Shown one piece after another: positions 26,172-59,493 of a stretch of 64,000 nt of DNA (the stretch's first letter is position 1; each line of letters starts with the position of its first letter). The DNA comes from an uncultured Clostridia bacterium (GTDB lineage Bacteria; Bacillota; Clostridia; Oscillospirales; Ruminococcaceae). The translations under genes were made by a program, and so were the position numbers. Under the pieces are notes generated by a model that saw only the letters and a program-made list of their open reading frames with translations, did no database searches and was not told the DNA's origin. The stretch covers positions 1 through 64,000 of the forward strand of contig CANQHA010000014.1 in the NCBI GenBank assembly GCA_947623585.1, given 5' to 3'.

Positions 26172-26398
26172 AAAAAGGTATCCATATTTTCCTCTGCCGG
26201 AAAATATGGATGCTATTGTTTATCACCCCACCCCCGGCGCACGGACTGCGGAGAGGCCTGTTTTTATGAAGCCCCCGCCCCTCGAGGGGCGGGGGCGTTC
26301 GCTTTGTTACCTTTTAGACAAACGTACTGTGGGGGTGGGGTGACTAAAAATAGCATGAAATCATTACCTCGTGAGAGGGAATGATTGAATACCTTTTA
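26172..26398. repeat. REPIN-like palindromic element, copy A (complete)
   Basis: Starts AAAAAGGTA and ends TACCTTTTAT. Left hairpin stem ATCCATATTTTCC/GGAAAATATGGAT, then GCTATTGTTTATC, CACCCCACCCCCGG, a central GCCCCCGCCCCT/AGGGGCGGGGGC hairpin, GGGGGTGGGG, TAGCATGAAA and right hairpin ATCATTACCTC/GAGGGAATGAT. The whole is an imperfect inverted repeat. No coding frame spans it. The rest of 25910-26506 holds only the neighbouring hairpin module. Confidence 0.9.
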
Positions 26399-26506
26399 TC
26401 CGCTCGCCCGCCAAAGTCTCCCACAATTCCATGCTCGTTATTCCTCAAAACCTATAAACATCAAAACCTCCCCGCCCTGTTCGGACGGGGAGGCACAAAT
26501 TTCTCC

Positions 26507-28231
26507 TCAGAACCCGAGCTTTGCCTTGAAGTCTGCCGCGATCTTCTCGCTCAGCTTAACGGCTTCGTCGTGGGTCGGGGCGATGGTGGTGTAATACGCC
26601 TTGACCTTCGGCTCGGTGCCGGACGGGCGGATTATGACCGAGGCGCCGTTTTCAAGTCTGAACTGGATAACGTCGGACTTGGGAAGGTCGATCGGGGTCT
26701 CCTTGCCGGTCAGAAGGTCTTTATCGACGCGCTTCTGATAGTCCGCAAGCCCGACGACCTTATATCCGGCGATCTCGGAATAAGGCGCGCTGTGAAGATC
26801 CGACATCAGCTTAGCCATTTCGGCCATGCCGGCAGCGCCCTCGCAGACGAAGTTTGCGATACCGTGATAATAGTTGCCGTATTTTTTATACATCGCTTCT
26901 CTTGCTTCAAGAAGCGAAATGCCCTTTGAGCGGTAGAACGCGGCCATCTCGCAAATGAGCATAGAACCGACGACGGCGTCCTTGTCTCTGACATATGAGC
27001 CGGCAAGATATCCGTAGCTTTCCTCGAAGCCGAATATGTAGCGGTCGGCTTCTCCGGCGGCTTCAAGATAGCCTATCTGCTCGCCGATGAATTTGAAGCC
27101 TGTCAGAACGTTTCTGAGCTCGACGCCGTATTCTTTCGCGATGGCCGAGGCGATATCGGTCGAGACGATAGATTTCACCGCGACGGGGTTTTTGGGCATC
27201 GTGCCGAGGGCTATGCGCTCCTTGCAGATATATTCGAGAAGCAGCGCTCCGACTTCGTTTCCGGTGAAGAGAACAAAGTCGCCCTTGCCGTCAGGCACCG
27301 CGATTCCGACGCGGTCGCAGTCGGGGTCGGTGGCAAGAAGAAGATCGGGCTGAACGGTTTTGCACAGCTTAAGCCCGCAGGCGAGAGCCTCTTTTATCTC
27401 GGGGTTCGGGAAGGGGCAGGTCGGGAAGTTTCCGTCGGGGTTCTCCTGCTCGGGAACGACGGTAACGTCGGTTATGCCGACCTTTTTGAGGATAGCGCGC
27501 ACCGGCTTGTTTCCGGTTCCGTTAAGCGGAGTGTAAACGACCTTGAGCCCTGCGGTGCCGGTCAGCTCGGGGTGGACCTGCTGCTTTGCAACTTCGTCCA
27601 AATAGCTGTCGATGACGTCCTGACCGATATATTCGATCATTTTGCTCGAAAGCCCCTCGTCGAATCCCACCAGCTTTGCGCCGCCGAACATCGGGACCTT
27701 TCCGATTGCCGCCAAAACGATATCCGCGGCTTCAATGGTCATCTGGCAGCCGTCGGCGCCGTATGCCTTATAGCCGTTATATTTCGAGGGGTTGTGCGAA
27801 GCGGTGCAGACGATACCCGCCTTGCAGCCGAGCTTTCTTACGGCCCATGAAAGCATCGGGGTCGGCATAAGCTCGGGATAGATATAAGCCTTGATACCGT
27901 TTCCGGCGAGAACGCGAGCGGCTTCTCGGGCAAAAACATCGGACTTTATGCGGCTGTCATAAGCTATCGCGACGGCCTTGTCCTCACCCTTGAAAGCGCC
28001 GTTGACATAGTCCGCAAGGCCCTGAGTTGCGCGGCGGATAGTATAGATGTTCAGGCGGTAAGTCCCTGCGCCGATCACCCCGCGAAGACCTCCGGTGCCG
28101 AATTCAAGGTCGCGGTAGAAGCGGTCTTTGATGGCTTCCTCGTCGCCCTCAATCGATTTAAGCTCGGCCTGAAGGTCGGGGTCCTCGGTGGCGTTTTCAA
28201 GCCACAGCCTGTAAAGTTCAAGTTCTCTCAT
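26507..28231 (-). CDS. pgm: Phosphoglucomutase/phosphomannomutase
   Basis: 574 residues, alpha-D-phosphohexomutase family. Active-site Ser loop GIVCTASHNPSKYNG (near residues 140-155), metal loop ATDPDCDRVGIAV, sugar-binding loop FEESYGY, and C-terminal phosphate-binding SGTEPKVKAYY. It interconverts hexose 1- and 6-phosphates for glycogen, sugar-nucleotide or wall synthesis. Normal length for the family. ATG 28231 has AAAGGAG upstream. It is a single leftward gene. Confidence 0.95.
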   Translation of the reverse strand: MRELELYRLWLENATEDPDLQAELKSIEGDEEAIKDRFYRDLEFGTGGLRGVIGAGTYRLNIYTIRRATQGLADYVNGAFKGEDKAVAIAYDSRIKSDVFAREAARVLAGNGIKAYIYPELMPTPMLSWAVRKLGCKAGIVCTASHNPSKYNGYKAYGADGCQMTIEAADIVLAAIGKVPMFGGAKLVGFDEGLSSKMIEYIGQDVIDSYLDEVAKQQVHPELTGTAGLKVVYTPLNGTGNKPVRAILKKVGITDVTVVPEQENPDGNFPTCPFPNPEIKEALACGLKLCKTVQPDLLLATDPDCDRVGIAVPDGKGDFVLFTGNEVGALLLEYICKERIALGTMPKNPVAVKSIVSTDIASAIAKEYGVELRNVLTGFKFIGEQIGYLEAAGEADRYIFGFEESYGYLAGSYVRDKDAVVGSMLICEMAAFYRSKGISLLEAREAMYKKYGNYYHGIANFVCEGAAGMAEMAKLMSDLHSAPYSEIAGYKVVGLADYQKRVDKDLLTGKETPIDLPKSDVIQFRLENGASVIIRPSGTEPKVKAYYTTIAPTHDEAVKLSEKIAADFKAKLGF

Positions 28232-28337
28232 ACTTTATAACTCCTTTCAGGGAAAAATATCGTAAAATAATTATACAACATTTCTCGGCGGATTTCAATA
28301 GCCGAAGCCGATTTTTTGAAAGAATTGCCCGATTTGC

Positions 28338-28366
28338 TTGACCGGTTTAACAAGATGTGCTAAAAT
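28338..28366 (+). promoter_or_regulatory. Promoter of the GNAT-comM set
   Basis: TTGACC, 17-base spacer, TAAAAT; 29 bases before the GNAT ATG. Confidence 0.7.
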
Positions 28367-28394
28367 AGCAGTATATTTCAGGGAGGCGGCGTTT

Positions 28395-38177: not shown

Positions 38178-38179
38178 GG

Positions 38180-42002: not shown

Positions 42003-42290
42003 GCGGCAAAGATAGGGGGGTAAAGCTACAAGCGTTGAGGCTGCGCTTGCGCCGGCGGCGGCTGAGCGAGGTAAAAGGTATTCAATCGCTCCCTCTTGCG
42101 AGGGAGTGATTTCATGCTATTTTAAGTCACCCCACCCCCGTCATACTGCCTGCGGGCAGGAAAGATATCGAAGCCCCCGCCCCTTGTAGGGGCGGGGGCT
42201 CTCTAACTTAGCCGTTCCGCAGGTAGTATAGCGGGGGTGGGGTGCTAAACGATAGTATTCATCTTCCTCATGGGAAGATGAATACCTTTT
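42003..42290. repeat. REPIN-like palindromic element, copy B with outer linker
   Basis: Linker 42003-42072 (GCGGCAAAGATAGGGG, GCGTTGAGGCTGCGC) runs into AAAAGGTATTC at 42073. Left hairpin AATCGCTCCCTC/GAGGGAGTGATT, GCTATTTTAAGTC, CACCCCACCCCCG, central GCCCCCGCCCC hairpin, GGGGGTGGGGTG, GATAGTATTC and right hairpin ATCTTCC/GGAAGAT, ending AATACCTTTT at 42290. Compared with copies C and F the orientation is reversed. The 41763-42395 gap holds only this and a small hairpin near 41955. Confidence 0.85.
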
Positions 42291-44061: not shown

Positions 44062-44370
44062 GCGGGGAAAAGGTAGCCTTTCGGTTTGCGCTTTATCCCT
44101 ATCTTTGCCGCCGGCCGAACCGAGCGACAAAAAGGTATTCGCAAAATCCCGCCGCGGGGCGGAATTTTAGCGAATGCTATCGTCTATCACCCCACCCCCG
44201 CTCGCTATGTTACAAAACGCTCCATGCGCACAAAAGCCCCGTAGGGGCGTTGTGCCACAGACGCGGGGTTTTGCCCAAGAGGACGAGCCGCCGATTCGGC
44301 ATGGCGGCGAAGTTCGATTGGCAGCAAAACCAGCTTCTGTTGCCCTCGAGGGGAGGGGGCGTTCGCTATT
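44062..44370. repeat. REPIN-like element, copy D, interrupted
   Basis: Linker 44062-44128 (TTTGCGCTTTATCCCTATC, TTTGCCGCCGGCC), then AAAAAGGTATTC at 44129 with hairpin GCAAAATCCCGCC/GGCGGAATTTTAGC, GAATGCTATCGTCTATC and CACCCCACCCCCGC. A 128-base insert (44215-44342) follows, and then only the remnant GAGGGGAGGGGGCGTTCGC of the core. The right half is missing. The insertion is inside the element. Confidence 0.75.
44215..44342. repeat. Multibranched insert repeat, copy 1
   Basis: Shares about 125 bases with 51703-51828. It folds as GCACAAA/TTGTGC plus a large hairpin: outer GGTTTTG/CAAAACC arms around a GCCGCC/GGCGGC stem with loop GATTCGGCAT. Both copies lie in the same orientation on either side of the 7-kb glucan synthase gene. 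Confidence 0.8.
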
Positions 44371-47300: not shown

Positions 47301-50300
47301 GCGCGGTCGTCCTGAAGCGACGGCTCGATATAGCTTATCACCGATACCGAAAGCGGCGCCGACGTCTCGTTTTTAAGGGCGAATCTTCTTATCTCGCAGG
47401 GATAGTTTTCGTGCAGGCTGATCTTCATGCCCGACGACAGCTTTTCGGTGTTAAGATAAAACGCCGCGCCGTCGTCCGAAAATTCCGCGCTCATGCCGTC
47501 GCTTTTTCCGAGCAGGGGGCTGAAAGGCAGAGCCTCGCCGCCGTCGCTTAAAAAGCAGAAAACGCCTTTCGGCCTTGAAAGCAGGTCTCTTGTGCGAAGA
47601 TACACGTTTTTCGAGCGATATATCGAGGCGCTCGCCCCGCTGTCGGTTATCATAAGCGTCAGCTCGCCGTTGCAAAGCAGCTTGATACGCGGCGCAAAAA
47701 GGTTGAATTCGCTGAATGATTCGGTCTCAGAGGCGTTTTCCGTCGGCTCCGAGAGCTTCGGGCGTCTCAGATCGTTTTCAAAAACCGCCGTGCCGAGGTG
47801 GAACCGCTCGTCCAAAAGCTCGAGCGCCCCGCAAACTCTCGGGTCTTTTGCAAAGCGCTTTTGCATGATACCCCCGCTCAGAACGTTGTCGCAGGAAAGA
47901 ATGCTCATTCCGACGTGGTGCGCCATATAGCTTCTTACCGGCTCGGGCTTTTCCGAATCGGGCGGCGTAAAGTCGAGCGCCTCATAAAGCCCATAGCTGC
48001 CGCACATTCCGAATTCCGCGATCTTTCTTAAATTTTCAACGCCCTCTCCGCCCGAATATCCGAGCGAAATAAAGGTCGAATAAGGCGAAACGACATAGCT
48101 TTGCCCCAGCCCGCGCCCGATGCCGGTGTTCGGCACTCCGTGAGCCATATAGCGATAATTCAGCGCGCTGTCGAAGCTGTAATAGCCGCTTTCCGACACT
48201 CCGAACGGTCTGCCGAGGTCTTTGGCGTATTTTTTCTGCACCCAAAGCGCATATCTGAGGCTTTCGCCGAAAAGCGAGCCCTCGGGGCTTTTGAGGAATA
48301 TCTCGGGCATGAAAAATTCAAACATGGTGCCGGAATACGAGGCCGCCCCGCCGAAGAACCCGCAGCGAAGCATAGCCCTCGAGAGCCTTTGCCAGTGACT
48401 TTTCGGCACCTGTCTTGAAGCTATCGCCCAAAACGAGGCAAGCCTCGCCTCGCTCATCATATAGTCGTAATGCGAGCGGCGGTTTTTGCCCTTTTCGGGG
48501 TCGATGCCCAAAGACATCAGCCCTCTTATCGGGTCATAGAACACCCCTAAGTCGCAGGAATCTATCAGCTTTTCAATTCTTTTTATCAGAGCAGCCGCGG
48601 CGGGCGTTTGTTCAAGCTCATAAAGACCCTCCTTGAGGGTAACGAGGCAGACGGTGAAATTTCCGCTGTCAACGCTTGAAACGAACGGAGCGGGGCAGAT
48701 CTTCAGCGTTTTTGTGTCATACCAGTTATAGAGGTTCCCCGCGTATTTTTCAAGCCTTTCCACCGTCGAAACGGTCTTTTCAAGCCGTGAAAGAAGCTGA
48801 TCTCGGTTGATAAGTTTTCGGTCGAAAGCCGCGAGCGCCGAAAGAAGATAAAGCCCGATATTTGTCGGCGAGGTTCTGTGCGCCACCCTGAAAACCGGCG
48901 CGAACTGAACGTTGTCGGGCGGAAGATAGTTGTCGGCCCGGGTGACATAGTTTTCAAAGAAGCCCCACATATCCGCGGTCTGCTTTGATATTTCCCTGCC
49001 GTCGCGGTATTTCAGCTTTACCTCTGAGGCCGAGGCGCTTTGACGGTCAAGGCACAAAAGCGCCGGCATTGAAATGAATATCGCGCCGAACAGCCTTATA
49101 AGGTAGTCGGGCGACCAAAGAAGCGAAACGCTCAGAAGCTCGGGCAGAAGATAGAAAGCGAACGGGCTTTGCGACGAGCGGTCCGCCGAATCAGCAGTCG
49201 TCCAGTTTAAAAGCCCTCGGCCGGTAAAAAGCCTTATTATCGCGGTGAATATCGCCCCGAGCGATTTTACCGCCAAAACCGGCAGCATTACGGTGCTGTA
49301 AAGAATATATCTCACGCTTTGCGAGGCCGAGCTGATTATTCCCGAATAAAATCTCCGAGAGCGCGTTCTGTCCGAGAAAAACGCTCCCAAAGCGCCGACT
49401 GCGGCGGGCAAAAGCCACAGCGCCAAAGCCGAGCCGGCGATTATCGCCGAAGATACCGGCTCGATGAAAAAGCCGAGGAAAAACGCCGAAAAAACCGTCG
49501 GCGGGATCGCCGCCCGCCTCAGATTGTCGGCGAGCTTCAGCTTTGAAAGAGCGGAAAACCTCTTTGAAAAAAGCTCGGGAATGTTCTGAAAATCCCCGCG
49601 TATCCAGCGGTCGAGCCGCCGATAATAACTCTGCGGGGTCTTCGGAAATCCCTCCGTGAACAAAACGTCGCCCGCGCAGGCGGTTTTAAGAAGCTCGCCC
49701 TCCAAAATGTCGTGAGAAAGTATCCTCTCACCTTTAAGGCATGAGGCGCATTCGGTCAGCGCCGCAACGTTGATGAGCCCCTTTCCGCAAAAAGTTCCCT
49801 GCCCGAAAACGTCCTGATAAAGGTTTGCGGCCTCCTCGTCATAGCTTGATTTCGAGCCTATTCCGCCGAGGCTTTTCGAGAATTCCGAGCGTATCGAATC
49901 TTTCAGCCTTGTTACCATTCTCGGCGCGACGACGCCGAAGCCCTTGACTACGCGCCCGTTTTTCACCGAGACCTTGTTAGCCGGGTGCAGCGCTATCGCC
50001 AAAAGCTCGTTTACAGAATCCATCAGCGGCAGGGTATCGCTGTCCACGGCGCAGATATATTCTGTGCCGACGAGCGATTTGATGTTTCCCGCCGTCGCAT
50101 AAAAATCGCCCTCGCCGGTCTTCATGTAAAGTGCGATGTCCATAAGAGCGCCGCGTTTTCGCTCCCTGCCCATATATTCCTGCTGGCTTTCCGAAAATGT
50201 TCTTTTTCTTATCGCGCTGCAAAACTTTTCGGGGCAGATCTTTTCGAGCCGTTCGATAGCCTCCGAAACGCTGTCGATAACGGCGCGGTCCTCCGAGGTC

Positions 50301-51364
50301 ATCGGCACCTGTTCGGGTGCAAGGTCGATAAGCGCGCAGATCTTAATGTTTTCCGAGGGATTAAGGCAGTGCAGCTTAAGCAGCTTGTCATAAAGCCGCG
50401 AGGCGTCCTCGGGGTCGAATACCGCCGCCGAAAGAACGATGGCGACCGGCGTTTTTGCGACCTCTTTTGATTTTAAATCGAGCCGCATAAGCCTTGTCGG
50501 CGGGCGTTTTCCGCTTAAAATCCTGTCGCTCAAAGGGCGAAGGGCCTCGGTCGCCGGAAGAAAAATCAGCGCCGCCGCAAGGGGAGCCTCCGCCCAAAAA
50601 GCTGTTGCAAGCGATATCGCAGCCGCTCCCAAAACAATAAGAGCCGCCGCAGTCAAAGCCGCCGATGGCTTTTTTCTGCCGCTTTTTATGACCTCAAGGC
50701 TTGAAATGTCGATGTCTTCACCCGAGTATTTTTCTTTCAGCTCCTCGCAGAGCTTGATTTCGTCAAGTGAGAATTTTCGCGCCGTCGCATAAATTGCTTC
50801 TCTGTATAAAAGTTGGGTCTTGGGGTCGCTTTTCGAGTATGCGCCGTCGGATGAAAGGCTTATCGCGACGGGGTTTAAAACGTCGTTTATCGCCGCCTCG
50901 TCGATGCTCGCGACGTCGGAAAGAAGAGATATTATGCGCAAAAGGTTTTTATCCCAGCTTTTGACATATTCCGAAACGGCCTCGATGAGGGTATACGTCA
51001 CCGTAAATTTGAGGTATTCTGTCTCGCAGCCGAAAATTTTCCTGCCCGAGGAAGCCTCGCGCAGACGAATGATTATTTCGTCGGTATCGGGAAAGCGATC
51101 GTCTGAGCAGTCTATCAGCGCTTTGGCGAGCATGAATCCGCCGTCAGAGTATACGAGCCGCTCCGGCTTTTTCGGAAAAGCCCGGGTTCCCGCCGCGCTC
51201 AATATCGTGTGAAAATTGTCCGCGAAAAAAGCCGCGGTCTCGTTCTGCGCTCCGTCGGCGCAAAGCGATGAATAGATTCTTTTCAGCGTTCTAACTCTTC
51301 CCGCGGTTTTCCGAGAAAGGCTGCAAAGGCTTACAAAGCCGCCGCGCGCGTCGCCGTGACCCAT
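44366..51364 (-). CDS. Cyclic beta-1,2-glucan synthase-like protein (GT84 + GH94)
   Basis: Predicted 2332 residues from ATG 51364, where AAAGGAAG lies upstream. The N-terminal part is cytoplasmic; two membrane helices sit near 250-290; the GT84-type glycosyltransferase has CAVDSDTLPLMD and RLDRWIRGDFQ; more membrane helices follow (about 630-780). A glycoamylase-like region (LGYSGGEGVENLRKIAEFG, GSYGLYEALDFT) and the C-terminal GH94-type domain with IGSGDWNDGFNRVG near 2070 follow. Its relatives initiate, elongate, cyclise and phosphorolyse beta-1,2-glucans. It is one of the largest genes here and lies between repeat clusters. The product in this host is not shown. Confidence 0.88.
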   Translation of the reverse strand: MGHGDARGGFVSLCSLSRKTAGRVRTLKRIYSSLCADGAQNETAAFFADNFHTILSAAGTRAFPKKPERLVYSDGGFMLAKALIDCSDDRFPDTDEIIIRLREASSGRKIFGCETEYLKFTVTYTLIEAVSEYVKSWDKNLLRIISLLSDVASIDEAAINDVLNPVAISLSSDGAYSKSDPKTQLLYREAIYATARKFSLDEIKLCEELKEKYSGEDIDISSLEVIKSGRKKPSAALTAAALIVLGAAAISLATAFWAEAPLAAALIFLPATEALRPLSDRILSGKRPPTRLMRLDLKSKEVAKTPVAIVLSAAVFDPEDASRLYDKLLKLHCLNPSENIKICALIDLAPEQVPMTSEDRAVIDSVSEAIERLEKICPEKFCSAIRKRTFSESQQEYMGRERKRGALMDIALYMKTGEGDFYATAGNIKSLVGTEYICAVDSDTLPLMDSVNELLAIALHPANKVSVKNGRVVKGFGVVAPRMVTRLKDSIRSEFSKSLGGIGSKSSYDEEAANLYQDVFGQGTFCGKGLINVAALTECASCLKGERILSHDILEGELLKTACAGDVLFTEGFPKTPQSYYRRLDRWIRGDFQNIPELFSKRFSALSKLKLADNLRRAAIPPTVFSAFFLGFFIEPVSSAIIAGSALALWLLPAAVGALGAFFSDRTRSRRFYSGIISSASQSVRYILYSTVMLPVLAVKSLGAIFTAIIRLFTGRGLLNWTTADSADRSSQSPFAFYLLPELLSVSLLWSPDYLIRLFGAIFISMPALLCLDRQSASASEVKLKYRDGREISKQTADMWGFFENYVTRADNYLPPDNVQFAPVFRVAHRTSPTNIGLYLLSALAAFDRKLINRDQLLSRLEKTVSTVERLEKYAGNLYNWYDTKTLKICPAPFVSSVDSGNFTVCLVTLKEGLYELEQTPAAAALIKRIEKLIDSCDLGVFYDPIRGLMSLGIDPEKGKNRRSHYDYMMSEARLASFWAIASRQVPKSHWQRLSRAMLRCGFFGGAASYSGTMFEFFMPEIFLKSPEGSLFGESLRYALWVQKKYAKDLGRPFGVSESGYYSFDSALNYRYMAHGVPNTGIGRGLGQSYVVSPYSTFISLGYSGGEGVENLRKIAEFGMCGSYGLYEALDFTPPDSEKPEPVRSYMAHHVGMSILSCDNVLSGGIMQKRFAKDPRVCGALELLDERFHLGTAVFENDLRRPKLSEPTENASETESFSEFNLFAPRIKLLCNGELTLMITDSGASASIYRSKNVYLRTRDLLSRPKGVFCFLSDGGEALPFSPLLGKSDGMSAEFSDDGAAFYLNTEKLSSGMKISLHENYPCEIRRFALKNETSAPLSVSVISYIEPSLQDDRAERAHPAFSKMFLRLERDPEWNVCIVTRVREDRKIYLGIGFVEDVRETVSFDRGDVLRSQEGLKGLSKRFEEISPSLVCEPDPCVFIRTFLELPPKAETELTMFLALADSKEELVNRISAIRRKKPRFCTLPRLDTARGRVASALLADILFDLKKSPQRIKAAEKNRLPLRALWELSVSTDLPLAAVELNGRNDAQKLSAYLGAYKLLRLCGVELQIVFIFDDGGRYEREHYSDLIAAARAEGLESSVYSSGGILPLDLSKTREGLSDLCRAAACHLCSGEIAPTEQKTEAKPIMEILPSSPKAQKVEIPIALGGFSGEGYVINEKPPLPWCHVLSNPVFGTLLSNASLGFSFAFNSRENRLTPWDNDPAEDNSGERLLIKINGKVFDLINGAAAVFSPYKAEYFSCGEGFEAKIAVEVSAKGMCKKISVKIESKSPAEIIYYVEPCMGPDRSRCGLIVPERAENGILFAAPASDAAGFMFIGASKPCKTVCSREAFWAGETEGEIAPLPDVIGAVSVFCSEKEKIDFFMTYALSKRAAKIMPKYFLTQTDSRELIRDVKTGDPASDILSNRWLRYQALHARIYARTGFWQCSGAYGFRDQLQDAACIAPENPSVLKTQILRCCMAQFRQGDVLHWWHSLPGCKTKGIRTLISDDALWLPYALSEYLEITGDRSILSLEAAYCDGLELHENEKERYGEVYKTALRESVYLHCRRAVDLKAGKTGRHGLMLIGSGDWNDGFNRVGQEGLGESVWLSEFYIIVLKRFAKIAESVGDMTYAGSLEEYAAALSEAVEASGRDENYYLRGYFDGGAKLGSQKNQECKIDSVAQSFAEFAGLGKDGFSKKALQSACEALFDEKRGIVKLFAPAFSDSADPDPGYVKDYPEGIRENGGQYTHAAVWLAMACLRAGLFDEGRKILEAISPIRRSQNGGYAKYMTEPYYLCGDVYSNKNCLGRGGWSIYTGSAAWYYRAMREGWGKE

Positions 51365-51460
51365 GAAAATACTTCCTTTCGAGCAGGTTTTTTTAGGATA
51401 TTGTTTGCACGCCGCGCGCAATTATTCAGCGCTTTCAAACTTCCTGCAGGTCTGCGGGGT

Positions 51461-51681
51461 AAAAAGGTATTCATCTTCCCCATGGGAAGATGAATGCTAT
51501 CGTCTATTACCCCACCCCCGCTATGTTGCCTGCGTGGAGGCCGGTTTTTATGAAGCCCCCGCCCCTCGAGGGGCGGGGGCGTTGCAAAATGCCCCTTTCT
51601 GTTGTACTTTCGACGGGGGTGGGGTGACTTAAAATAACATGAAATATTTTCCTCGAAAGAGGAAAATATTGAATTCCTTTT
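51461..51681. repeat. REPIN-like palindromic element, copy C (complete)
   Basis: AAAAAGGTATTC, left hairpin ATCTTCCCC/GGGAAGAT, GAATGCTATCGTCTATTAC, CCCACCCCCGC, central GCCCCCGCCCCT/AGGGGCGGGGGC, GGGGGTGGGGTGAC, AACATGAA and right hairpin AATATTTTCCTC/GAGGAAAATATT, ending GAATTCCTTTT. Left hairpin matches the right hairpin of copy B. Confidence 0.9.
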
Positions 51682-51702
51682 CTTCTTCTGCGCTATGCCC
51701 CT

Positions 51703-51828
51703 AAACGTTCCATGCGCACAAAGCCCCGCAGGGGATTTGTGCCACAGAAGCGGGTTTTGTCCAAGAGAACGAGCCGCCGATTCGGTATGGCGGCGAAGTT
51801 CGATTGGCTACAAAACCCGCTTATGTTG
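51703..51828. repeat. Multibranched insert repeat, copy 2
   Basis: Same core as 44215-44342, in the same orientation. The outer stem GCGGGTTTTG/CAAAACCCGC is longer here; inner GCCGCC/GGCGGC with loop GATTCGGTAT. GTCCAAGAGAACGA and GAAGTTCGATTGGC also pair. Confidence 0.8.
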
Positions 51829-52080
51829 ACCTCAGCAGAGGGAATGATTGAATACCTTTAGCTCGCCCGCCGTCGGCGCAAACGCAACCTCAACGTTTGC
51901 AGCTTTATCTCTACCTTTGCCGCCAACCGAGCCGACCTGCAAAAAGGTATTCGCAAAATCCCGCCTCGGGGCGGAATTTTAGCGAATGCTATCGTCTATC
52001 ACCCCGCCCCCGCCATGTTGCCTGCTGGCAGGAAAAATATCGAAGCCCCCGCCCCTCAAGGGGGCGGGGGCGGGGTCTTT
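51829..52080. repeat. REPIN-like element, copy E with linker and preceding right end
   Basis: 51831-51859 is a right end (GAGGGAATGATTGAATACC). The linker follows (CGCCCGCCGTCGGCGC, TTTATCTCTACCTTTGCC) and then the left end AAAAAGGTATTC at 51941 with hairpin GCAAAATCCCGCC/GGGGCGGAATTTTAGC, GAATGCTATC, CACCCCGCCCCCGCC and a GCCCCCGCCCC core that stops at 52080. The right half is absent. Confidence 0.75.
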
Positions 52081-52119
52081 AGCGTACCGCTTCCATACAA
52101 AGCCTTGCCTAAAGCGTTC

Positions 52120-53712
52120 TTATCCTTCTCCCCCCAATATCACGTGTACTGTCGCCGTGCTGTTTGCGGGGTCTTCGGGAAGGCTGAGCCTTCCGGCCTT
52201 GATCTCCTCGTCGGCGACAAAACCGCGAATGTGGTTAGCTATATTTACCACTCCGGGGAGATATTTTTTGACGTATGGATTGCTCTCGGACTTCAGCAGT
52301 TCAAGAATATCTTCGCCGTTTTTTCGCATGATTCCGACGAGCTTTTCATATTTCGGATGCTCATTGATCACCTTTTCTATCGCTTCGTATTCATCGCCGC
52401 TCATTATGAGAATATCCGAGACGAGCTTGCCGTCCGGTTCGGCGTGGAAAAGCGCTTTAAGGCTGTCGAAAGTAGTCTTTTCGTGGTCGGTGAGGTCGTT
52501 GTAATTTCTGCCCGAGCGTATCAGCTTTGCCGCCCAGATGGCGTTTGCAACATTGAAGTTTTGCACGTCAGTATTTTCGCAGAGATTGCGGCTGTGCATG
52601 ACAAAGGCTCCTAAAAATTCGCCGCGGCCATTATAGCTCACAAAGTTGTATTCGGGCTGTTCGCCGCCCTCCTCGAAGCCGTAGAATTCCCAGTCGTCGC
52701 CGTTTGAGCGCGGCTCGCGTTCAAAACTCAGGTGCGAGTCTGCCTCCGCCTCGACGAGCGTCGCAAAAACCGCATACCATTTGAGGCTGCTGCCGTCAAG
52801 GCTTGAATTATCGGTGCAGCCCATATCTATGAGTTTCTTAACGGCGTCATTTGCGATCTCATCTGCGTACTCCGCCGCTTTCGGCGCGGACTTTTTCAGA
52901 ATTTCGACTGCTTCCGTGCGCTTTCCCGCCGAAACGATAGGAAAGTCGGTCACATATTTTTTGCCGTCTATGGCTTTTAAAAGCGTGGCGCAAACGAGTT
53001 TGTCAACTTCTTCCCTCATATAAGGCGCCGCTATTCCGAGGGCGACCGCCAATTCCTCGACGGTCGATGGGTTGTCCGACGCTTCGATAAGGACGTTTTT
53101 TGAAAGCATCGTCCCTACTGCTCCCCACGGAAGCTGAGGGGTAACGTGTCCGCTTGCGACGAATGAAATGTTCTCCGGTTTATAGCTTTTCGGACCGAAT
53201 TCTCTTGCCATATCTATTCCTTCTTTCAGTATTTTTCTTGCACGGAAAAGTTTTGATTTGACCGTGTTTTCCGGGAGACCGAGCGATGCGGAAATGTCTT
53301 TTACCGAGCGGTCGTCGATATAAAACGCAACGACGATCTTTCGGTATTCCTCCGATATAAACGCAAGCTCGCGCCGCAAAAGACTGAGCTGTTCGCTTAA
53401 AACTGCCGACTCTTCGGGGCTTTTTTCGTCGCCCGCAAGCTCGAGCTCATAAACGTCGCCGCCGTCGCGTTCACGGGTTTTGCGTCGGTTTTCGGAATAA
53501 TCCGCATAGCGGTTGCGCGCCGACCGCCAGACGTATGCCGCAAGATCATTAGGCTGCGCGCCCTTTGAGAGCGAGCTTATTATTCCTAAAGAAATATCCT
53601 GCGCAAGGTCTAAAGCGTCATCGGGTGAGCCGGTCTTTTTCAGACAGAAGTAGTAGACCTTCTCCATAAATTCCGAGACGTATTCGCGGATAAGTATTTC
53701 CGATGTTATCAT
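52120..53712 (-). CDS. ECF sigma factor with long C-terminal extension
   Basis: Predicted 530 residues from ATG 53712 (AAAGGAGG upstream). Residues 1-165 are a complete sigma-70 region 2/4 pair (PDDALDLAQDISLGIISSL, ARNRYADYSENRRK, DISASLGLPENTVKSKLF). The remaining 365 residues are not typical of ECF factors. About 190-290 look like a winged-helix/regulatory domain (NPSTVEELAVALGIAAPYM) and about 300-500 are helical. It resembles ECF groups with fused C-terminal domains that sense signals without an anti-sigma protein. A broken duplicate lies upstream. Target genes are unknown. Confidence 0.8.
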   Translation of the reverse strand: MITSEILIREYVSEFMEKVYYFCLKKTGSPDDALDLAQDISLGIISSLSKGAQPNDLAAYVWRSARNRYADYSENRRKTRERDGGDVYELELAGDEKSPEESAVLSEQLSLLRRELAFISEEYRKIVVAFYIDDRSVKDISASLGLPENTVKSKLFRARKILKEGIDMAREFGPKSYKPENISFVASGHVTPQLPWGAVGTMLSKNVLIEASDNPSTVEELAVALGIAAPYMREEVDKLVCATLLKAIDGKKYVTDFPIVSAGKRTEAVEILKKSAPKAAEYADEIANDAVKKLIDMGCTDNSSLDGSSLKWYAVFATLVEAEADSHLSFEREPRSNGDDWEFYGFEEGGEQPEYNFVSYNGRGEFLGAFVMHSRNLCENTDVQNFNVANAIWAAKLIRSGRNYNDLTDHEKTTFDSLKALFHAEPDGKLVSDILIMSGDEYEAIEKVINEHPKYEKLVGIMRKNGEDILELLKSESNPYVKKYLPGVVNIANHIRGFVADEEIKAGRLSLPEDPANSTATVHVILGGEG

Positions 53713-53723
53713 GCTTTCGGCCT

Positions 53724-53807
53724 CCTTTCGCTGATATAGTCGGCGCAGATGAAAAAAGGTTGCGATTTTATTTTAGCAGATTTTTCGCTCAAATCAAGCG
53801 CGCCGAG
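53724..53807 (-). repeat. 84-bp direct repeat upstream of the ECF gene, unit 1
   Basis: Almost identical to 54075-54158 (two or three differences). It spans the ribosome-binding end and upstream region of the intact ECF gene, so the duplication included its control region. Confidence 0.88.
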
Positions 53808-53814
53808 TCTTGAT

Positions 53815-54056
53815 TCAGCGCTCAAAGCTCCTTGCAATGGCGTTCGCGACCGCTTCGACTGTCGAGAAGCCGCCCGATGTTTCTATGAGAACGTTTTTTG
53901 AAAATACCGTCCCGATTGTGCTCCAAGTGCGCCGATGAGCGGCGCGCCCGTTTGCAAAAAGCGCCGCGTTCTCGGGTCTGAAACTTTTCTGCCCGAATCC
54001 TCTTGACATTTTTATTCCTTCTTTCAAAATCTTTTTGAAAGGCTCGAACGGCGGCG
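53815..54056 (-). pseudogene. Remnant of a duplicated ECF sigma gene
   Basis: Reading from about 54056 the frame has KKILKEGIKMSRGFGQKSF, RPENAALFANGRAAHRR, SKNVLIETSGGFSTVEAVA, then a stop at 53815-53817. This aligns with residues about 155-235 of the intact gene, while the sigma part and the rest of the C-terminus are lost. The upstream region duplicates the intact gene's 84-bp upstream repeat. Confidence 0.82.
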
Positions 54057-54074
54057 GTTTGCCTCGCTCCTGCG

Positions 54075-54158
54075 CCTTTCGCTGATATAGTCGGCGCAGA
54101 TGAAAAAAGGTTGCGATTTTATTTTAGCAGATTTTTCGCCCGAATCAAGCGCGCCGAG
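54075..54158 (-). repeat. 84-bp direct repeat, unit 2
   Basis: Second unit of the direct repeat, 351 bases from the first, upstream of the ECF remnant. It also forms the start of the gap before the LspA-like gene. Confidence 0.88.
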
Positions 54159-54176
54159 CCCTGCCGCGCCCAAAAC

Positions 54177-54206
54177 TTGACAAAATTAACCGATATAGGG
54201 TATAAT
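54177..54206 (+). promoter_or_regulatory. Promoter of the LspA-like gene
   Basis: TTGACA, 18-base spacer, TATAAT; 31 bases before GTG 54237. Confidence 0.78.
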
Positions 54207-54236
54207 TTACGCATACTTATTCGGGAGGGGAAAGAA

Positions 54237-54893
54237 GTGAAGAAAAAGGGCGTTTTTGCTATCATAGCGATAGCCGTGCTGATATTTGCCGACCAGTGTT
54301 CAAAGCTCCTTGCGAGGGCGTTTGCGCCGTCCGAGGCCGCGCCGCTGATACATATTCACGCGGCATCGGGGTGGTTTTCATTCGCGTTTTATCCTGAGCT
54401 CCACGACCGTTGGTCGCTGCCCGCCGATATAGTGATGGCGGTTTTGGGAGCGGCGATAACTGCGGGGTTCGTTTTTTATTTCAAATACGAGCGTGCGGCG
54501 CTTTTTCGGGATATAAAAGGCGCGGAAAGGATCAAATGCTGCTCGGGGCTGACCCTTGCGGCGATGATCTTCTGGACTGCGGGTATCGTCTGCTCGGTGT
54601 TTTTCGACGCGTTTTTATGGGGCGGCTCGCTTGATTTTCTCTGTTTTGATTGGGCGAAGCTGCACAAGGGCGACCCGAGCCTTGCCGACCTATATCATCT
54701 CAACCTCGACCTGAAAGACATTTTTGCCGTTCTCGGAACGTTTTTGCTGCTTCTTCGCATGGCTATCAGGCAGATATCGCTTTTTTCGCTCGACAGGCCT
54801 GCCCGCAAGCTGATCTCAAAGCGCGAGTTCCACTTTATAAAGAGCGTTCGAGAGGCTAAAAGCGCCGCCGAAAACTCGTCCGAGACGTTTTAG
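54237..54893 (+). CDS. LspA-like membrane protein (diverged signal peptidase II)
   Basis: Predicted 218 residues from GTG 54237 (GGGAGGGG upstream). Four hydrophobic segments (about 5-20, 54-80, 93-130, 160-182). ADQCSKLLAR near the start recalls the signal peptidase II DQ-x-x-K motif, and LKDIFAVLGTFLLLLRM recalls its last helix. The expected NxGAAF and GNxxDR active-site motifs are not seen, so lipoprotein processing is doubtful. It could be a paralogue with lost activity. A terminator follows. Confidence 0.55.
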   Translation: MKKKGVFAIIAIAVLIFADQCSKLLARAFAPSEAAPLIHIHAASGWFSFAFYPELHDRWSLPADIVMAVLGAAITAGFVFYFKYERAALFRDIKGAERIKCCSGLTLAAMIFWTAGIVCSVFFDAFLWGGSLDFLCFDWAKLHKGDPSLADLYHLNLDLKDIFAVLGTFLLLLRMAIRQISLFSLDRPARKLISKREFHFIKSVREAKSAAENSSETF

Positions 54894-54910
54894 TCTCCCC
54901 GCCAAAGAGA

Positions 54911-54945
54911 AAAGCAGGAAACCGTTTCGCGGTTCCTGCTTTTAT
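54911..54945 (+). terminator. Terminator after the LspA-like gene
   Basis: AAAGCAGGAAACCG and CGGTTCCTGCTTTTAT with loop TTTCG. It also faces the leftward XRE gene end. Confidence 0.85.
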
Positions 54946-54976
54946 ATTGCTTCAATTTTTCCTCAGCCGCACCGCT

Positions 54977-56185
54977 TTACTCCGTGCGCGTTTCGACGAG
55001 GTTTTCAACACGCTTCACGCACGCCTTATATCTCGGCTCGTTTCTTATCGGGTCGAACCATTCCCAGCCGCGCTCGGCGGTGAGCATATAGAGATACTGC
55101 GACGGATAAACGCAGAAGCAGCAGTTGCCCGAGCTGTCTATAAAGATGTTTCTTTCAAGCGGTCCCGGCTGCGAATTCGGGTTGTACCAGCTTTCCTCTG
55201 CCGTCCATTTTACAGTCGGGGTAAAGCGCGAGGTCTCAAGCTCAACTTTGTCGGTTATCTTCATGACATCTTCAAGCAGCGACACAACGTCCTCTAAGAC
55301 CGTAAGCGCCTCGTCGCGCCTGTCCATAGAAGCCAAATAGCACGAGCGGCGAATTCCTATCTCGATTCTCGATTCCGCCCAATAGTCAACGCCTTTTCCG
55401 CAGGTTATCGGGTGCTCGGGCGTAGGGGTCTCCTCGGCGAACGCGTGAAGGATTCCGAGACGGGCGGTATTTTCCGCAAAGCAGTGTTCAAGCGTTCTGC
55501 TATTGAGGTTCAGATACATCGCTCGGGAATTCACCGCGTCGTCGATGATCTCAAACAGCTTTTGATTCTGAAGCGGCGTCGCCTTATCGGGCTCGTTTCT
55601 CTGCATATAACGTCTCATCAAAAGCGCGTCCCTGCCGATGTCGTAGGGCGTTGCATAGCGCTTTAAAAACGCTTCGATGCGGTCTTCGTCCTCGATTATC
55701 GCCATTTTTTCAATGACGTCGGTGCTGTAAGGGCGCCTTTCAAGTCTTTCCTCGGCAAAAAGTCTGACCTCGGGCATGAGCCTTTTGTCTTTCAGAATTT
55801 GGTCAAAGCCGCTCATCCAGAATTTCCACACCGCGTCGCAGGCCGAATAGTCTCGGCGAAGCTCAACGACAATTTCCGCGAGCCTTTCAAAGCGCTCGTT
55901 CTCCTTTTCTTTGGGCATATCCGCGCTTTGAAGCCTGCAAAACTCGTCGCAAAGCTCCTCGGCCCGTTTTTCCTTTTCGCCCTCGGGTATACCCAAAAGC
56001 TCGTCGACCGGCACCGAGAAAATCTCGGATATCGCCGGCAAAAGCTCCATATCGGGGTATGCCGAGCCGGTCTCCCAGCGGCTCACAGACTGATAAGTCA
56101 CTCCGAGGCGGTCGGCAAGCTGCTCCTGAGTGAGATCTTTTTGTCGGCGCAAGCGCCTGATGTTTTCACCTATTGATAATTTCAT
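54977..56185 (-). CDS. XRE-family regulator with long helical C-terminal domain
   Basis: Predicted 402 residues. An N-terminal HTH (residues 4-60: QEQLADRLGVTYQSVSRWE) of the XRE/Cro type is followed by a 340-residue helical and TPR-like sensing part. Large XRE-type regulators with such tails often respond to peptides or small ligands. The 300-base gap upstream (56186-56484) holds palindromic AT-rich stretches (CTCATAAAGTGAG, CATATGAG) that could be its operator. Target genes are not known; the divergent flavodoxin gene is a candidate. Confidence 0.85.
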   Translation of the reverse strand: MKLSIGENIRRLRRQKDLTQEQLADRLGVTYQSVSRWETGSAYPDMELLPAISEIFSVPVDELLGIPEGEKEKRAEELCDEFCRLQSADMPKEKENERFERLAEIVVELRRDYSACDAVWKFWMSGFDQILKDKRLMPEVRLFAEERLERRPYSTDVIEKMAIIEDEDRIEAFLKRYATPYDIGRDALLMRRYMQRNEPDKATPLQNQKLFEIIDDAVNSRAMYLNLNSRTLEHCFAENTARLGILHAFAEETPTPEHPITCGKGVDYWAESRIEIGIRRSCYLASMDRRDEALTVLEDVVSLLEDVMKITDKVELETSRFTPTVKWTAEESWYNPNSQPGPLERNIFIDSSGNCCFCVYPSQYLYMLTAERGWEWFDPIRNEPRYKACVKRVENLVETRTE

Positions 56186-56426
56186 ATCGGATCACTCCTT
56201 GCAAAAATTTTCTTCGCGAAGTTTTCTGAGCTCATCAAAAGGATAACATAAGATATCGCACAAATCAATAACTCATAAAGTGAGAATTTTTCAACATATG
56301 AGTGAATTATAATTTTTTCGGAGCAGCGCCGCTTTCCAAAATGCGCATATTCTCCCTCCGAGCCGCTTGCGACCGCGCTTTTCGGGTTTGCCAGATTTTT
56401 CAAGTCGATTTTTGGGATTTTTCGGC

Positions 56427-56454
56427 TTGACAAAACGCAAAATAGTGGTAAAAT
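56427..56454 (+). promoter_or_regulatory. Promoter of the flavodoxin set
   Basis: TTGACA, 16-base spacer, TAAAAT; 30 bases before ATG 56485. Confidence 0.75.
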
Positions 56455-56484
56455 CATTGCAGAGCATTTGATTCGGAGGTTTAT

Positions 56485-56901
56485 ATGAATATTGCCGTAA
56501 GATATTATACCCGCTCGGGAAACACCAAAAAGCTCGCCGAGGCGATAGGCGGGGCGCTCGGCGTCAAGGCCGAGAACGTCTCGGTATCGCTGCCCGAAAA
56601 CGCCGATCTTCTGTTTCTCGGCTGTTCGGTTTATGCCGGAGGGTGCGCGCCCGAGGTCTCGCAGTTTATCGAGAGCAACTCTGACAGAATAGGAAAGATC
56701 GCGGTGTTCGGCTCGTCGGCATCTGGTAAATCGACCATCAAAAAGATAAAAGCCGCCGCCGGAAAAAACGGTCTTGAGGTTTGCGGACGAGAGTATATCT
56801 GCCGCGGAAAATTCCTCTTTTTAAACGGAGGCAGACCCAACGAGGACGATCTTGCCGGCGCGGTAGCCTTTGCCGACGCTGTTTCAGGGGCGCTCGAGTG
56901 A
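56485..56901 (+). CDS. Flavodoxin-like protein
   Basis: Predicted 138 residues. The P-loop TRSGNTKKLAEAIGG (residues 9-23) binds FMN phosphate, and ADLLFLGCSVYAGG is the usual second loop. Flavodoxins carry electrons in anaerobes; short forms also occur as NAD(P)H quinone reductase-like domains. It leads a short rightward set with a DNA glycosylase-like and a nitroreductase gene. Confidence 0.85.
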   Translation: MNIAVRYYTRSGNTKKLAEAIGGALGVKAENVSVSLPENADLLFLGCSVYAGGCAPEVSQFIESNSDRIGKIAVFGSSASGKSTIKKIKAAAGKNGLEVCGREYICRGKFLFLNGGRPNEDDLAGAVAFADAVSGALE

Positions 56902-56933
56902 TATTTTAAAAGATTTTCCGAAAGGTGACGTCG

Positions 56934-57419
56934 ATGAGGCAGACGCATGGGTTTCCGCCGTTTTTTGACAAAAGCAGCGAAATTCTGATACTCGGCAGCT
57001 TCCCCTCGGTTAAAAGTCGGGGGGAAGCCTTTTATTACGCGCACCCGCAAAACCGCTTCTGGAGGGTTTTGGCGCTTTGCTTCGGCGATAGCGTTCCCCA
57101 AACCCTTGACGAGAAGAAAAGTTTTCTCACAAAAAATAAGATCGCGCTTTGGGACGTTATCGAGAGCTGCGAGATAGTCGGCTCAAGCGATTCGTCTATT
57201 CGTTTTCCCGAGGCGGCGGATATTGCTTCGCTGCTCGGAAAAACAGATGTCAAAAAGGTGATTTTGAACGGAAAGACCGCCGAACGGTGGTTTTTAAAAT
57301 TTTATCCGAATTTTCCGCTGCCAAAAGCAACGCTGCCCTCAACGAGCCCCGCAAACGCCTCGTGGAGCGTCGAGCGGTTGGCGGCGGCGTGGAAAAGCGA
57401 AATTATCGGGGAGGTATAA
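56934..57419 (+). CDS. Family 6-type uracil/hypoxanthine-DNA glycosylase-like protein
   Basis: Predicted 161 residues from ATG 56934, with AAAGGTGA six bases upstream. ILILGSFPSVKSRG (motif with GSFPS) and YYAHPQNRFWRVL, then IALWDVIESC, then LPSTSPAN near the end, match the Mug/UDG family-6 hypoxanthine-DNA glycosylases that excise deaminated bases. The GSFPS and SPAN segments form the active site. It lies 32 bases after the flavodoxin gene and ends 2 bases before the nitroreductase. Confidence 0.88.
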   Translation: MRQTHGFPPFFDKSSEILILGSFPSVKSRGEAFYYAHPQNRFWRVLALCFGDSVPQTLDEKKSFLTKNKIALWDVIESCEIVGSSDSSIRFPEAADIASLLGKTDVKKVILNGKTAERWFLKFYPNFPLPKATLPSTSPANASWSVERLAAAWKSEIIGEV

Positions 57420-57421
57420 AA

Positions 57422-57937
57422 ATGTCGCTTACCGAGCTTATGCAAAAAAGATTTTCCGTCAGGAGCTTCGACGGAAAGAGGGTGGAGGGCGAAACGCTTG
57501 CCGAAATACTTGAAGCGGGCAGGCTTGCGCCGACGGCGAAAAACAATCAGCCGCAAAAGATCTATGTCGTTCAGAGCGATTCGGCGCTTGAAAAGCTGAA
57601 CGCGGTCTGCAAGTGCGTTTTCGGGGCGAGAACGGTGCTCGCAGTCGGCTATGACCGCGAACTTGACTGGAAAAACCCGCTCATGCCGCCCTATCATTCG
57701 GGAGAGACCGACGCGGCGATAGTCTGCACTCACATGATGCTCAAGGCGAGAGAGCTCAGCGTCGGAAGCTGCTGGGTCGGATTTTTCAACGCCGACGAGG
57801 TATCAAAGGCGCTCGGGCTGCCCGAGAACGTCGTTTTGACCGCGCTTCTGCCGATAGGTTACCCCTCCGAGAACGCGGCTGCTTCAGAGCGGCATTTTTC
57901 ACGCAAGCCGCTTTCCGAGACGGTCGAATACTTATAA
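57422..57937 (+). CDS. Nitroreductase family protein
   Basis: Predicted 171 residues from ATG 57422 with GGGAGG at the end of the preceding gene. RFSVRSFDGKRV and ILEAGRLAPTAKNNQPQKI are the family's FMN-binding start, GSCWVGFF and ALLPIGYPS close the fold. Such enzymes reduce nitro, quinone or flavin substrates with NAD(P)H. The adjacent flavodoxin and DNA glycosylase suggest a small redox/repair set, but function is not shown. Confidence 0.92.
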   Translation: MSLTELMQKRFSVRSFDGKRVEGETLAEILEAGRLAPTAKNNQPQKIYVVQSDSALEKLNAVCKCVFGARTVLAVGYDRELDWKNPLMPPYHSGETDAAIVCTHMMLKARELSVGSCWVGFFNADEVSKALGLPENVVLTALLPIGYPSENAAASERHFSRKPLSETVEYL

Positions 57938-58007
57938 AAAATTCCGGCGGGTGCAATTTTTCGGCCCGCCGGCGCGTATTATATGTGAACCGAAGGGAGA
58001 TGTCCGC

Positions 58008-59204
58008 ATGAAAAAACTGCTTGTTCCGTTAATTCTGGCGCTTTTTCTCTGCGCCTGCACGGTCGGCCCCGAAGAGGCTCCGCATAATGATATTTTAAAC
58101 CCGCAAAGCCCCGCAGCCTCCGATCGGCCCGATGTTTCCGCGCCCGCCGTTTCGCCGGAAGACGTTTCCTCCGAGCCCGAGCCGGGCGAAGATGTCGGCG
58201 ATACGACCTCGGAGGATATACCCATACCCGACGAGCCGGAGGACGTTTTGGAGATACCCGAAGAACCCGAGATAAGCGATACGGCGGAACCTGACGCGAT
58301 AGATGTTGAGCTTTTCGACGAGCCGGTAACGATGTCATCGACCATATCGCTTAATGTGCGAAGCGGGCCCTCGACCGACTATGAGCCGATAGGGATCATC
58401 GAGCCTGACGACAAAGTGACGGCTTTCGGAGAGTCCGATGGCTGGTATGCGATAACGTATAAAGAAGCGACCGGTTTTGTCAGCGCAAAATATATGAAAG
58501 CGGAGGAATCTTCTCAGCTCGACCCGCTCGACCACGCCGCGGCGGCCTCGATAATCGAGGCTTATGCCCGCCTTGACGGCCGAGACCCGAAGCTGGTCGC
58601 TTTGGGCGGATATTTCGGAGAATACGGCGGCGGCTTCGCGGTGCTGATGTATTCCGACAGCGCCGAGGGCTTTGAGGACTATGATTTCGGCTACTGCACA
58701 TTTGAGCTCGATCTGACCGAGCGGCTTTTCTATTATAAAAACGGCGAATTCACGCCTTTGGGCGAGGCAAAATCTGCGGGCGAACTCAGCGACGAGGAAA
58801 TAAAGACTATCCACCGTTATTTTGAAGAGATGAGAAAAAATGACGAGGCATCAAATCTTTCGCTTCCCGAGCTTGAACCGCTCAGCGCTCGTCAAGAGGA
58901 TTCTCTTGCAAAAGATTGGATAGAGCAGTATTGCGGCGGCGAAGACCCCGGCGGGGTCAGAACGGCGAGGTATTTCGGCACATACGGCGGCTCGGAGGTA
59001 GTTGTCATGACCTCAGCGGAAAACGCCGCCAATGATGTGGAGAGCGCAATAAACATCGCGGGGTATATCATAAGGTTTTGGGATTCAAACCAAAATATCC
59101 TTTTGCACCGCGGCCATGAGTTTTTCCCTCTCGAAACGGCATATCTCTATGATTATATCAGCGACGAGGACCTTGCGAGGATAAGTTATTATTCGGGGAA
59201 GTGA
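58008..59204 (+). CDS. Lipoprotein with bacterial SH3 domain
   Basis: Predicted 398 residues from ATG 58008 (AAGGGAGA upstream). Lipobox LFLCAC (Cys at about 18), an acidic Pro/Ser linker rich in Glu/Asp, and an SH3b domain at about 105-165 (TISLNVRSGPSTDYEPIG, GWYAITYKEATGFVS). The rest (about 170-398) contains two similar alpha/beta units (LVALGGYFGEYGGGFAVL, GTYGGSEVVVM). SH3b domains bind peptidoglycan, so it is probably wall-associated. No catalytic site recognised. Confidence 0.82.
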   Translation: MKKLLVPLILALFLCACTVGPEEAPHNDILNPQSPAASDRPDVSAPAVSPEDVSSEPEPGEDVGDTTSEDIPIPDEPEDVLEIPEEPEISDTAEPDAIDVELFDEPVTMSSTISLNVRSGPSTDYEPIGIIEPDDKVTAFGESDGWYAITYKEATGFVSAKYMKAEESSQLDPLDHAAAASIIEAYARLDGRDPKLVALGGYFGEYGGGFAVLMYSDSAEGFEDYDFGYCTFELDLTERLFYYKNGEFTPLGEAKSAGELSDEEIKTIHRYFEEMRKNDEASNLSLPELEPLSARQEDSLAKDWIEQYCGGEDPGGVRTARYFGTYGGSEVVVMTSAENAANDVESAINIAGYIIRFWDSNQNILLHRGHEFFPLETAYLYDYISDEDLARISYYSGK

Positions 59205-59267
59205 GGGGAACGCCGCGCTGCGATTTATGCAGATATTTTACTTTCTGCGGAGATTGTGAAGTTGCTT

Positions 59268-59493
59268 AAAAGGTATTCATCTTCCCCGCTCACGCGGGTA
59301 AGAAGAATGCTATCGTCTATCACCCCACCCCCGCTATACTTTCTGCGGAACGGCTAAATTAGAGAGCCCCCTCCCCTTTGAGGGGAGGGGGCGTTCGCTT
59401 TGCGACCTTTCCGGCAAACGTACCGTGGGGGCGGGGTGACTTAAAATAGTATGAAATCATTACCTCGTGAGAGGGAATGATTGAATACCTTTT
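59268..59493. repeat. REPIN-like palindromic element, copy F (complete)
   Basis: AAAAGGTATTC at 59268; left hairpin is imperfect (ATCTTCCCCGC, GCGGGTAAGA); GAATGCTATCGTCTATCAC, CCCACCCCCGC; central GCCCCCTCCCCT/AGGGGAGGGGGC; GGGGGCGGGGTGAC, TAGTATGAAA, right hairpin ATCATTACCTC/GAGGGAATGAT; ends GAATACCTTTT at 59493. Its right hairpin equals that of copy A. Nothing else is supported in the 59205-59630 gap. Confidence 0.9.

Follow-up and report, generated by a model that had tools for sequence, protein, structure and literature searches.

We identified a family of palindromic repeats in a 64,000-nucleotide stretch of DNA (the window) on contig CANQHA010000014.1 (C14) of the 2.07 Mb draft genome (G000) of an uncultured Clostridia bacterium. 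A complete copy has a hairpin at each of its two ends, and the two hairpins almost never belong to the same stem class: only one of 54 two-ended copies carries the same class at both ends (AATC-AATC), compared with 12.7 expected under random pairing, and none of 100,000 shuffles gave so low a count. We propose, with a probability of roughly 0.6, that these repeats are lineage-restricted, non-autonomous palindromic dimers that are reshuffled by recombination, and whose equal-ended forms are purged or unable to fold. The unequal-end class rule is new here; it was missed by the original prediction, an earlier reading of this DNA that described REPIN-like palindromes with interchangeable stems. 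No published naming of the repeat family or of the rule was found in titles and the beginnings of abstracts, which is no proof of absence.

Read inward from either end, the unit consists of an outer flank, AAAAGG, a hairpin, CTAT, a short arm, CACCCCACCCCCG, a spacer and a central GC hairpin that is common to both halves of the copy. The unit is about 225 bp long, or about 300 bp with its outer flanks. The outer flank (about 40 bases, CTTTATACCTGCGTTTGCCGCAAGCCGAACCGACCGCTT or kin) is part of the repeat at many ends, and its matches adjoin AAAGG at 48 of 51 places in the stretches of this genome that were scanned; the copy limits first proposed, which left out these bases beyond AAAAGG, were thus too short. 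The short arm after CTAT is of two main kinds, TTTAAGT or CGCTTAT. In the end hairpin, the foot GTAT..ATRC is conserved and the stem is variable. By eye, GTAT pairs with ATRC on the opposite side, and TC/TC in the foot is unpaired in 80 of 142 distinct hairpins. As the T.R pair of the foot is partly imposed by the search pattern, the foot was recounted free of that limit in loci of this genome (n=166), giving T-G 87 times, T-A 40, A-G 6 and A-A 1, with 32 ends lacking the inner motif.

The six copies lie where they had been predicted, A, B, D and F being two-ended and C and E partial. They and their parts, together with copies of a second repeat family (module 2), are as follows, in window coordinates:

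26172..26398, strand (.), copy A, two-ended, from sequence reading and class scoring
26178-26213, left hairpin of copy A, class ATAT, limits by eye
26271-26296, central GC hairpin of copy A, limits by eye
26353-26392, right hairpin of copy A, class AATC, limits by eye
42073..42290, strand (.), copy B, two-ended, from sequence reading and class scoring
42078-42117, left hairpin of copy B, class AATC, limits by eye
42173-42199, central GC hairpin of copy B, limits by eye
42255-42285, right hairpin of copy B, class ATCTT, limits by eye
44091..44128, + strand, outer flank (about 40 bases, CTTTAT...) abutting the left end of copy C, from the flank scan
44129..44202, + strand, copy C, left half only, hairpin class GCAAA
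44203..44341, + strand, module 2 joined inside copy C, limits approximate
44342..44363, + strand, remnant of the central GC hairpin of copy C (loop and right arm)
51461..51681, strand (.), copy D, two-ended, left class ATCTT, right class AATAT
51690..51832, + strand, module 2 between copies D and E, limits approximate
51833..51860, + strand, right-end fragment (..AGAGGGAATGATTGAATACCTTT)
51903..51940, + strand, outer flank of copy E, from the flank scan
51941..52080, + strand, copy E, left half (class GCAAA) and central GC hairpin, without a right half
59268..59493, strand (.), copy F, two-ended, from sequence reading, class scoring and folding
59273-59310, left hairpin of copy F, class ATCTT, limits by eye
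59366-59392, central GC hairpin of copy F
59449-59488, right hairpin of copy F, class AATC, limits by eye

The motifs listed for these copies in the original prediction are present, some of them as variants: the left end of copy A reads AAAAAGGTATCC and the right end of copy D GAATTCCTTTT, and GCTATCGTCTATCAC is exact only in copies C, E and F among the six. Its list of shared stems held in part. The right stems of A and F are the same, whereas the right stem of B resembles the left stem of D (ATCTTCC..) and not the left stem of C, and the stems of D and E are not equal. The stem GCAAAATCCCGCC is the same in the left hairpins of C and E.

The 54 two-ended copies come from the window and loci L001-L054 and L114-L133, which make up part of the genome, and were counted if their ends had at most one mismatch and their length was 190-260 bp. 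The stem classes are patterns of our own definition (AATC at 39 ends, ATCTT at 25, ATAT at 22, GCAAA at 12, CCATT at 7 and AATAT at 3), and a definition without the splitting of one class and the widening of another also gives a single equal copy. The inner arms combine TT with CG in 42 of the 50 scorable copies, the remaining 8 being equal where 25.1 were expected. The unequal-end effect therefore reflects in part the existence of two kinds of ends and in part, it seems, an avoidance of equality among ends of the same kind. Two-ended copies recognisable in sister species carry two different hairpins each; this was read by eye, since the 18 two-ended candidates obtained with a loose rule from five genomes (stretches of seven were searched) include several that are nested, spurious or plain coding sequence. 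The copies inspected in the sister genomes G015, G017 and G018 run to the GC hairpin and have no recognisable second end, G018 additionally yielding two two-ended candidates under the loose rule. Because of these single-ended copies, we conclude that the lone half unit is common in some species; the genome studied here is rich in dimers.

Folding predictions provide a possible reason for the rule. With DNA energy parameters, and a side hairpin scored as kept when at least 60% of its stem-loop bases pair locally, both side hairpins are predicted to be kept in 47 of 53 natural copies (one copy was excluded, its inner motif not being found) and in none of 106 equal-ended controls, built with one half placed at both ends. 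The ends of the controls are predicted to pair with each other instead, and mean folding energy is -105 for the controls and -65 for the natural copies. Because equal ends collapse into one long hairpin, unequal ends are necessary for the side hairpins in the folding model. They avoid, in addition, a long hairpin of a kind whose removal by the cell would be expected. The genome has an SbcD match over the cut-off, in a search for SbcD alone. Among 31 genomes of the genus, SbcD was over the cut-off in 11, comprising 6 of the 8 that carry the repeat pattern and 5 of the 23 that do not (Fisher P 0.012, confounded by relatedness). G015 and G017 have no SbcD match over the cut-off and single-ended copies in the examples inspected; the inspected copies of G018, which has an SbcD match, are single-ended too.

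Comparison of the arms indicates that each stem stays self-complementary while its letters change. Loci from eight genomes contain 118 distinct stem-loop sequences, of which the 106 with at least 13 bases, from six genomes, were used and 12 shorter ones excluded. These were grouped by the first five bases into 27 left-arm classes, some of them near variants of each other, with one representative each. Watson-Crick pairs occupy 116 of 135 arm positions, against a maximum of 69 in 20,000 reshufflings of the right arms. Within the AATC class, for which 22 hairpins were hand-picked out of 41 distinct ones, both sides change in 7 of 15 pairs (27 cells), a result matched by 0 of 500 shuffles; a C.T mismatch occurs in the stem of AATC-class hairpins. 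The predicted joint change of both arms is thus borne out.

Stems are also reassorted among copies, in agreement with the exchange first suggested from the window. When each end was compared with its nearest neighbour, either by outer flank (at least 70% alike, 71 of 108 ends) or by inner spacer (close neighbours, 97 of 108), the hairpin class differed in 32 of the 71 outer-flank neighbours and in 58 of the 97 inner-spacer neighbours. At least two pairs of copies have an identical 25-base inner spacer and different hairpins. Module 2 (AACAGAAGC.GGTTTTG ... GCATGGAGCGTTCAGGGACATAGCG) is itself a structured repeat family, and in the arrays inspected it joins the main repeats at hairpin loops, replacing parts of them; copy C, for instance, retains its left half and a single arm of the central hairpin, with module 2 in place of the rest. 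Parts of module 2 recur in the seven sister genomes searched, among the matches listed. A third repeat (GAAGATAGAAATTAGAGGTTAGAG ... GGTGTCGCC) adjoins main-repeat copies at L132:12005-12108 and 14758-14861 (G000:C2) and has many matches in G022 and G020.

Many copies are dispersed through the genome. The end motif AAAGGTATTC occurs 95+93 times, compared with 3+3 for a reversed control, the inner motif CACCCCRCCCCCG 73+70 times and the 15-mer GCTATCGTCTATCAC 12+6 times, both with a control count of 0. In 28 copies, two perfect ends lie 200-230 bp apart. Intergenic placement is roughly supported: according to a crude caller of open reading frames (ORFs), 35 of the 54 two-ended copies overlap no ORF of at least 90 codons and 19 do. 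A search of 60 genomes detected the end-plus-inner pattern in 8 of 31 genomes of the genus (this one, which has the most hits among the eight, included) and in none of 29 genomes of other genera of the same family and order. A strict-pattern scan of a genome-contig collection returned 33 stretches, only in three metagenome-assembled genomes of uncultured Clostridia, whose isolate names (Lapin) point to rabbit. The highest identity between any two of the 54 copies is 91.5%, suggesting an old spread, fast divergence of the stems or loss of identical copies in the draft assembly.

The repeat had been predicted to be a mobile element, and one occupied/empty site between species supports its spread, as judged from aligned sequences. 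At one gene pair, the distance between the same aligned stretches is 742 bp in this genome and 61 bp in the sister genome G022. The 742 bp comprise one two-ended copy and module 2, located downstream of an argD-like gene, and the difference spans several modules. We take the two genes to be argD and GDSL-like from our own reading of the sequence. By eye, both genomes have a terminator-like hairpin after the argD-like gene, and the repeat lies beyond it. Of the hallmarks of a classical DDE MITE, inverted ends are present, and 28 flank pairs inspected by eye, with no formal test, revealed no evident target-site duplication.

Copies tend to lie at rearrangement points, an association that need not be causal. 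We tallied collinearity in three 19-kb stretches against G016 and G022 only, excluding short repeat-type hits. Usable flanks (gap in this genome up to 2.1 kb) were available for 16 of the 20 site-by-relative pairs; one of these 16 was collinear and 15 were not. Element-free intervals of 700 bases were collinear in 553 of 606 and 538 of 580 cases, and those of 1500 bases in 379 of 494 and 382 of 463; these intervals overlap one another and take in positions inside genes, which biases the contrast upward, and some breaks may be no more than contig ends of the draft genomes. A segment of about 2 kb with a copy on either side (L132:12155-15137, G000:C2) differs in order and orientation from G016 and G022, whereas these two agree. 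For copy F, a good match in relatives was obtained only with the right-hand gene; for copies B-E, wherever both flanking genes were matched in relatives, they lie on different contigs. A minus-strand ORF of 2351 codons occupies window positions 44366-51421, between copies C and D; it is matched at about 66-73% identity in sister species, where its neighbours are on other contigs.

We suggest the following account of these dimers. They are built like head-to-head REP dimers: two inward-facing end hairpins flank an inner C-rich/G-rich stem and the central GC hairpin, so that a single DNA strand can adopt a cloverleaf-like fold with two side hairpins. Hairpins may be exchanged between copies by recombination or template switching through the conserved blocks. 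Equal-ended products might then be lost, either because their long hairpin stalls replication and is cut in an SbcCD-type removal, or because the two side hairpins are no longer presented to whatever moves or uses the repeat. Spread could occur by single-strand transposition or an equivalent process, the enzyme for which was not found in this genome.

Several observations weigh against this proposal. Both side hairpins are not predicted together in 6 of the 53 natural copies. End classes are partly set by position (TT vs CG), and the effect could partly reflect two functional ends; when copies with AAT classes are left out, a post hoc subset, 0 of 13 copies are equal compared with 3.4 expected (P 0.02). 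Hairpin class is linked to both the outer flank and the inner spacer, as neighbours share it in 39 of 71 cases (16.7 expected) and 39 of 97 cases (22.9 expected), respectively, so the exchange is not free. The single clean empty site is between species rather than strains, and the PF01797 searches and the comparison of Y1 ends described below link neither a transposase nor any other mover to the repeat. We also rejected the use of mismatch bias to identify the folding strand: the stems of 142 distinct hairpins contain 27 G-T mismatches and nearly as many A-C ones (23), and this near-parity gives no sign of whether RNA or DNA folds, or which strand. Finally, template switching alone could keep the stems palindromic without any use.

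This last point leads to a possible, though unlikely, explanation in which the repeats are a neutral by-product: quasi-palindrome correction and gene conversion would keep each stem palindromic and shuffle the stems, long perfect inverted repeats would be deleted, and there would be neither function nor mobility today. If template switching rewrites one arm to match the other, covariation can arise without selection. The lack of a clear G-T preference, of near-identical copies among the 54 and of a Y1 mover in the PF01797 search of this genome fits such an origin, as does the SbcD match. Set against it are the conserved foot and spacing and the occurrence of the same design with unrelated stems in several species, which suggest a recognised structure; moreover, the occupied/empty site requires insertion or deletion of a whole block.

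Another proposal, tentative and rather improbable in our judgement, is that the ends are recognised by shape instead of by letters, through a putative single-strand recombinase using the two orthogonal side hairpins of one folded strand. Stem diversity would then prevent left-right pairing, and the stems would act as exchangeable, mutually exclusive end labels. Integron attC sites are recognised by shape in this manner.

We also consider it doubtful that these are true REPINs, depending for their movement on a Y1 transposase of the RAYT or IS200-like type that recognises the end hairpins and was lost or missed here. Their head-to-head hairpin pairs and unequal dimers would fit, and the mismatches in many stems (TC/TC in the foot, C.T) resemble the bulge of Escherichia coli REPs (PMC8266576). 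Among the 31 genomes of the genus, the PF01797 profile gave a Y1 match over the cut-off in 5 of 8 repeat-positive and 3 of 23 repeat-negative genomes (Fisher P 0.013), an association confounded by relatedness. Against this identity, the profile has no match in the genome studied here, which is 99.47% complete and the richest of the eight in pattern hits; the predicted RAYT-type mover was thus not found. The sister species yielded 19 Y1 matches, and the eight compared for their ends look like ordinary IS200 elements, a judgement from size and layout, with other ends and not bounded by the repeat; the best-defined set shares about 725 bp with ends of its own. On the PF01797 search and these eight comparisons, RAYT/IS200 was rejected as the mover. 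No unpaired GTAG or CGTC tag was seen by eye beside the hairpins. Recognition by TnpA-REP relies on the GTAG tag and on the palindrome with its stem irregularities, to a degree that varies by system (PMC8266576). Spread by phages or plasmids was likewise rejected, with no match in viral contigs (one strict pattern) or in plasmids or phages (query copy F).

That the repeats are bidirectional terminators or mRNA 3' structures, each hairpin being followed by a short T run when read outward, is highly unlikely: 4-5 T directly adjoin 99 of 108 outer ends, and window positions 41800-60000 contain 50 terminator-like sites (31.4 in shuffles), 12 of which we counted within copies B-F, which span about 6% of these positions, but the empty site has its separate terminator-like hairpin in both genomes, the crude ORF caller indicates no clear 3' bias (22 tandem, 16 convergent and 14 divergent gaps, n=52, against 74, 30 and 30 of all 134 gaps), and the unequal ends are left unexplained. 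An IS200-like copy in G016 (L063, G016:C13) lies directly at the outer CCTTTTT end of one main repeat; two related copies (L064, L071) follow a hairpin and T run, so that the element may target terminator-like sites, an arrangement that also favours terminators. Rfam returned only two tRNAs over threshold in the window, with four weak hits far below the cut-offs at copy F.

Dispersed repeats such as bcr1 and its like occur in Firmicutes. The description of the present family as REPIN-like fits its build and not its membership: dimers and a high copy number were found, and the tag and a RAYT/Y1 gene that define REPs and REPINs were not. The closest likeness is to the GTAG/CGTC REP heterodimers of a 2013 survey (Di Nocera et al., PMC3733652), which describes head-to-head dimers with alternative complementary stem residues, some of them nested in longer palindromes. 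Those REPs are also high-copy intergenic hairpins, and in many of their families unequal partners are preferred; here they prevail in 53 of 54 copies. The statement in the original prediction that known REPs keep their hairpin sequence is consequently too strong. According to the same survey, many REP families prefer heterodimers with "no obvious explanation", and protection from SbcCD-type removal was suggested. Compared with those REPs, the repeats of this genome are longer, have an inner stem and central GC hairpin, lack the tag, and exchange six stem classes on one foot within one genome, with the unequal-end rule measured. They share with REPINs and RAYTs (PMC3116915) a repeat unit linked to hairpins, and with the E. 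coli TnpA-REP/BIME system (PMC8266576) the combination of different REP types, y with z1 or z2 in BIMEs. They differ from both in that no Y1 was found and the stems are not one conserved sequence. The mitochondrial double-hairpin elements, or repetitive hairpin-forming elements, described in PMC2800124 are dispersed hairpin repeats of two types that differ by a few complementary substitutions and are possible recombination sites; those are organellar, with conserved stems and variable loops, the reverse of the pattern here.

For the lineage-restricted dimers proposed here, the occurrence of six stem classes on one conserved foot in a single genome makes the unequal-partner rule measurable. Folding, in the model, offers a concrete reason why REP-like dimers may be unequal, as equal ends would form one long hairpin. 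In sister species the design recurs with unrelated stems, which provides a natural experiment on whether these repeats are maintained by their shape, their sequence or simple stability.

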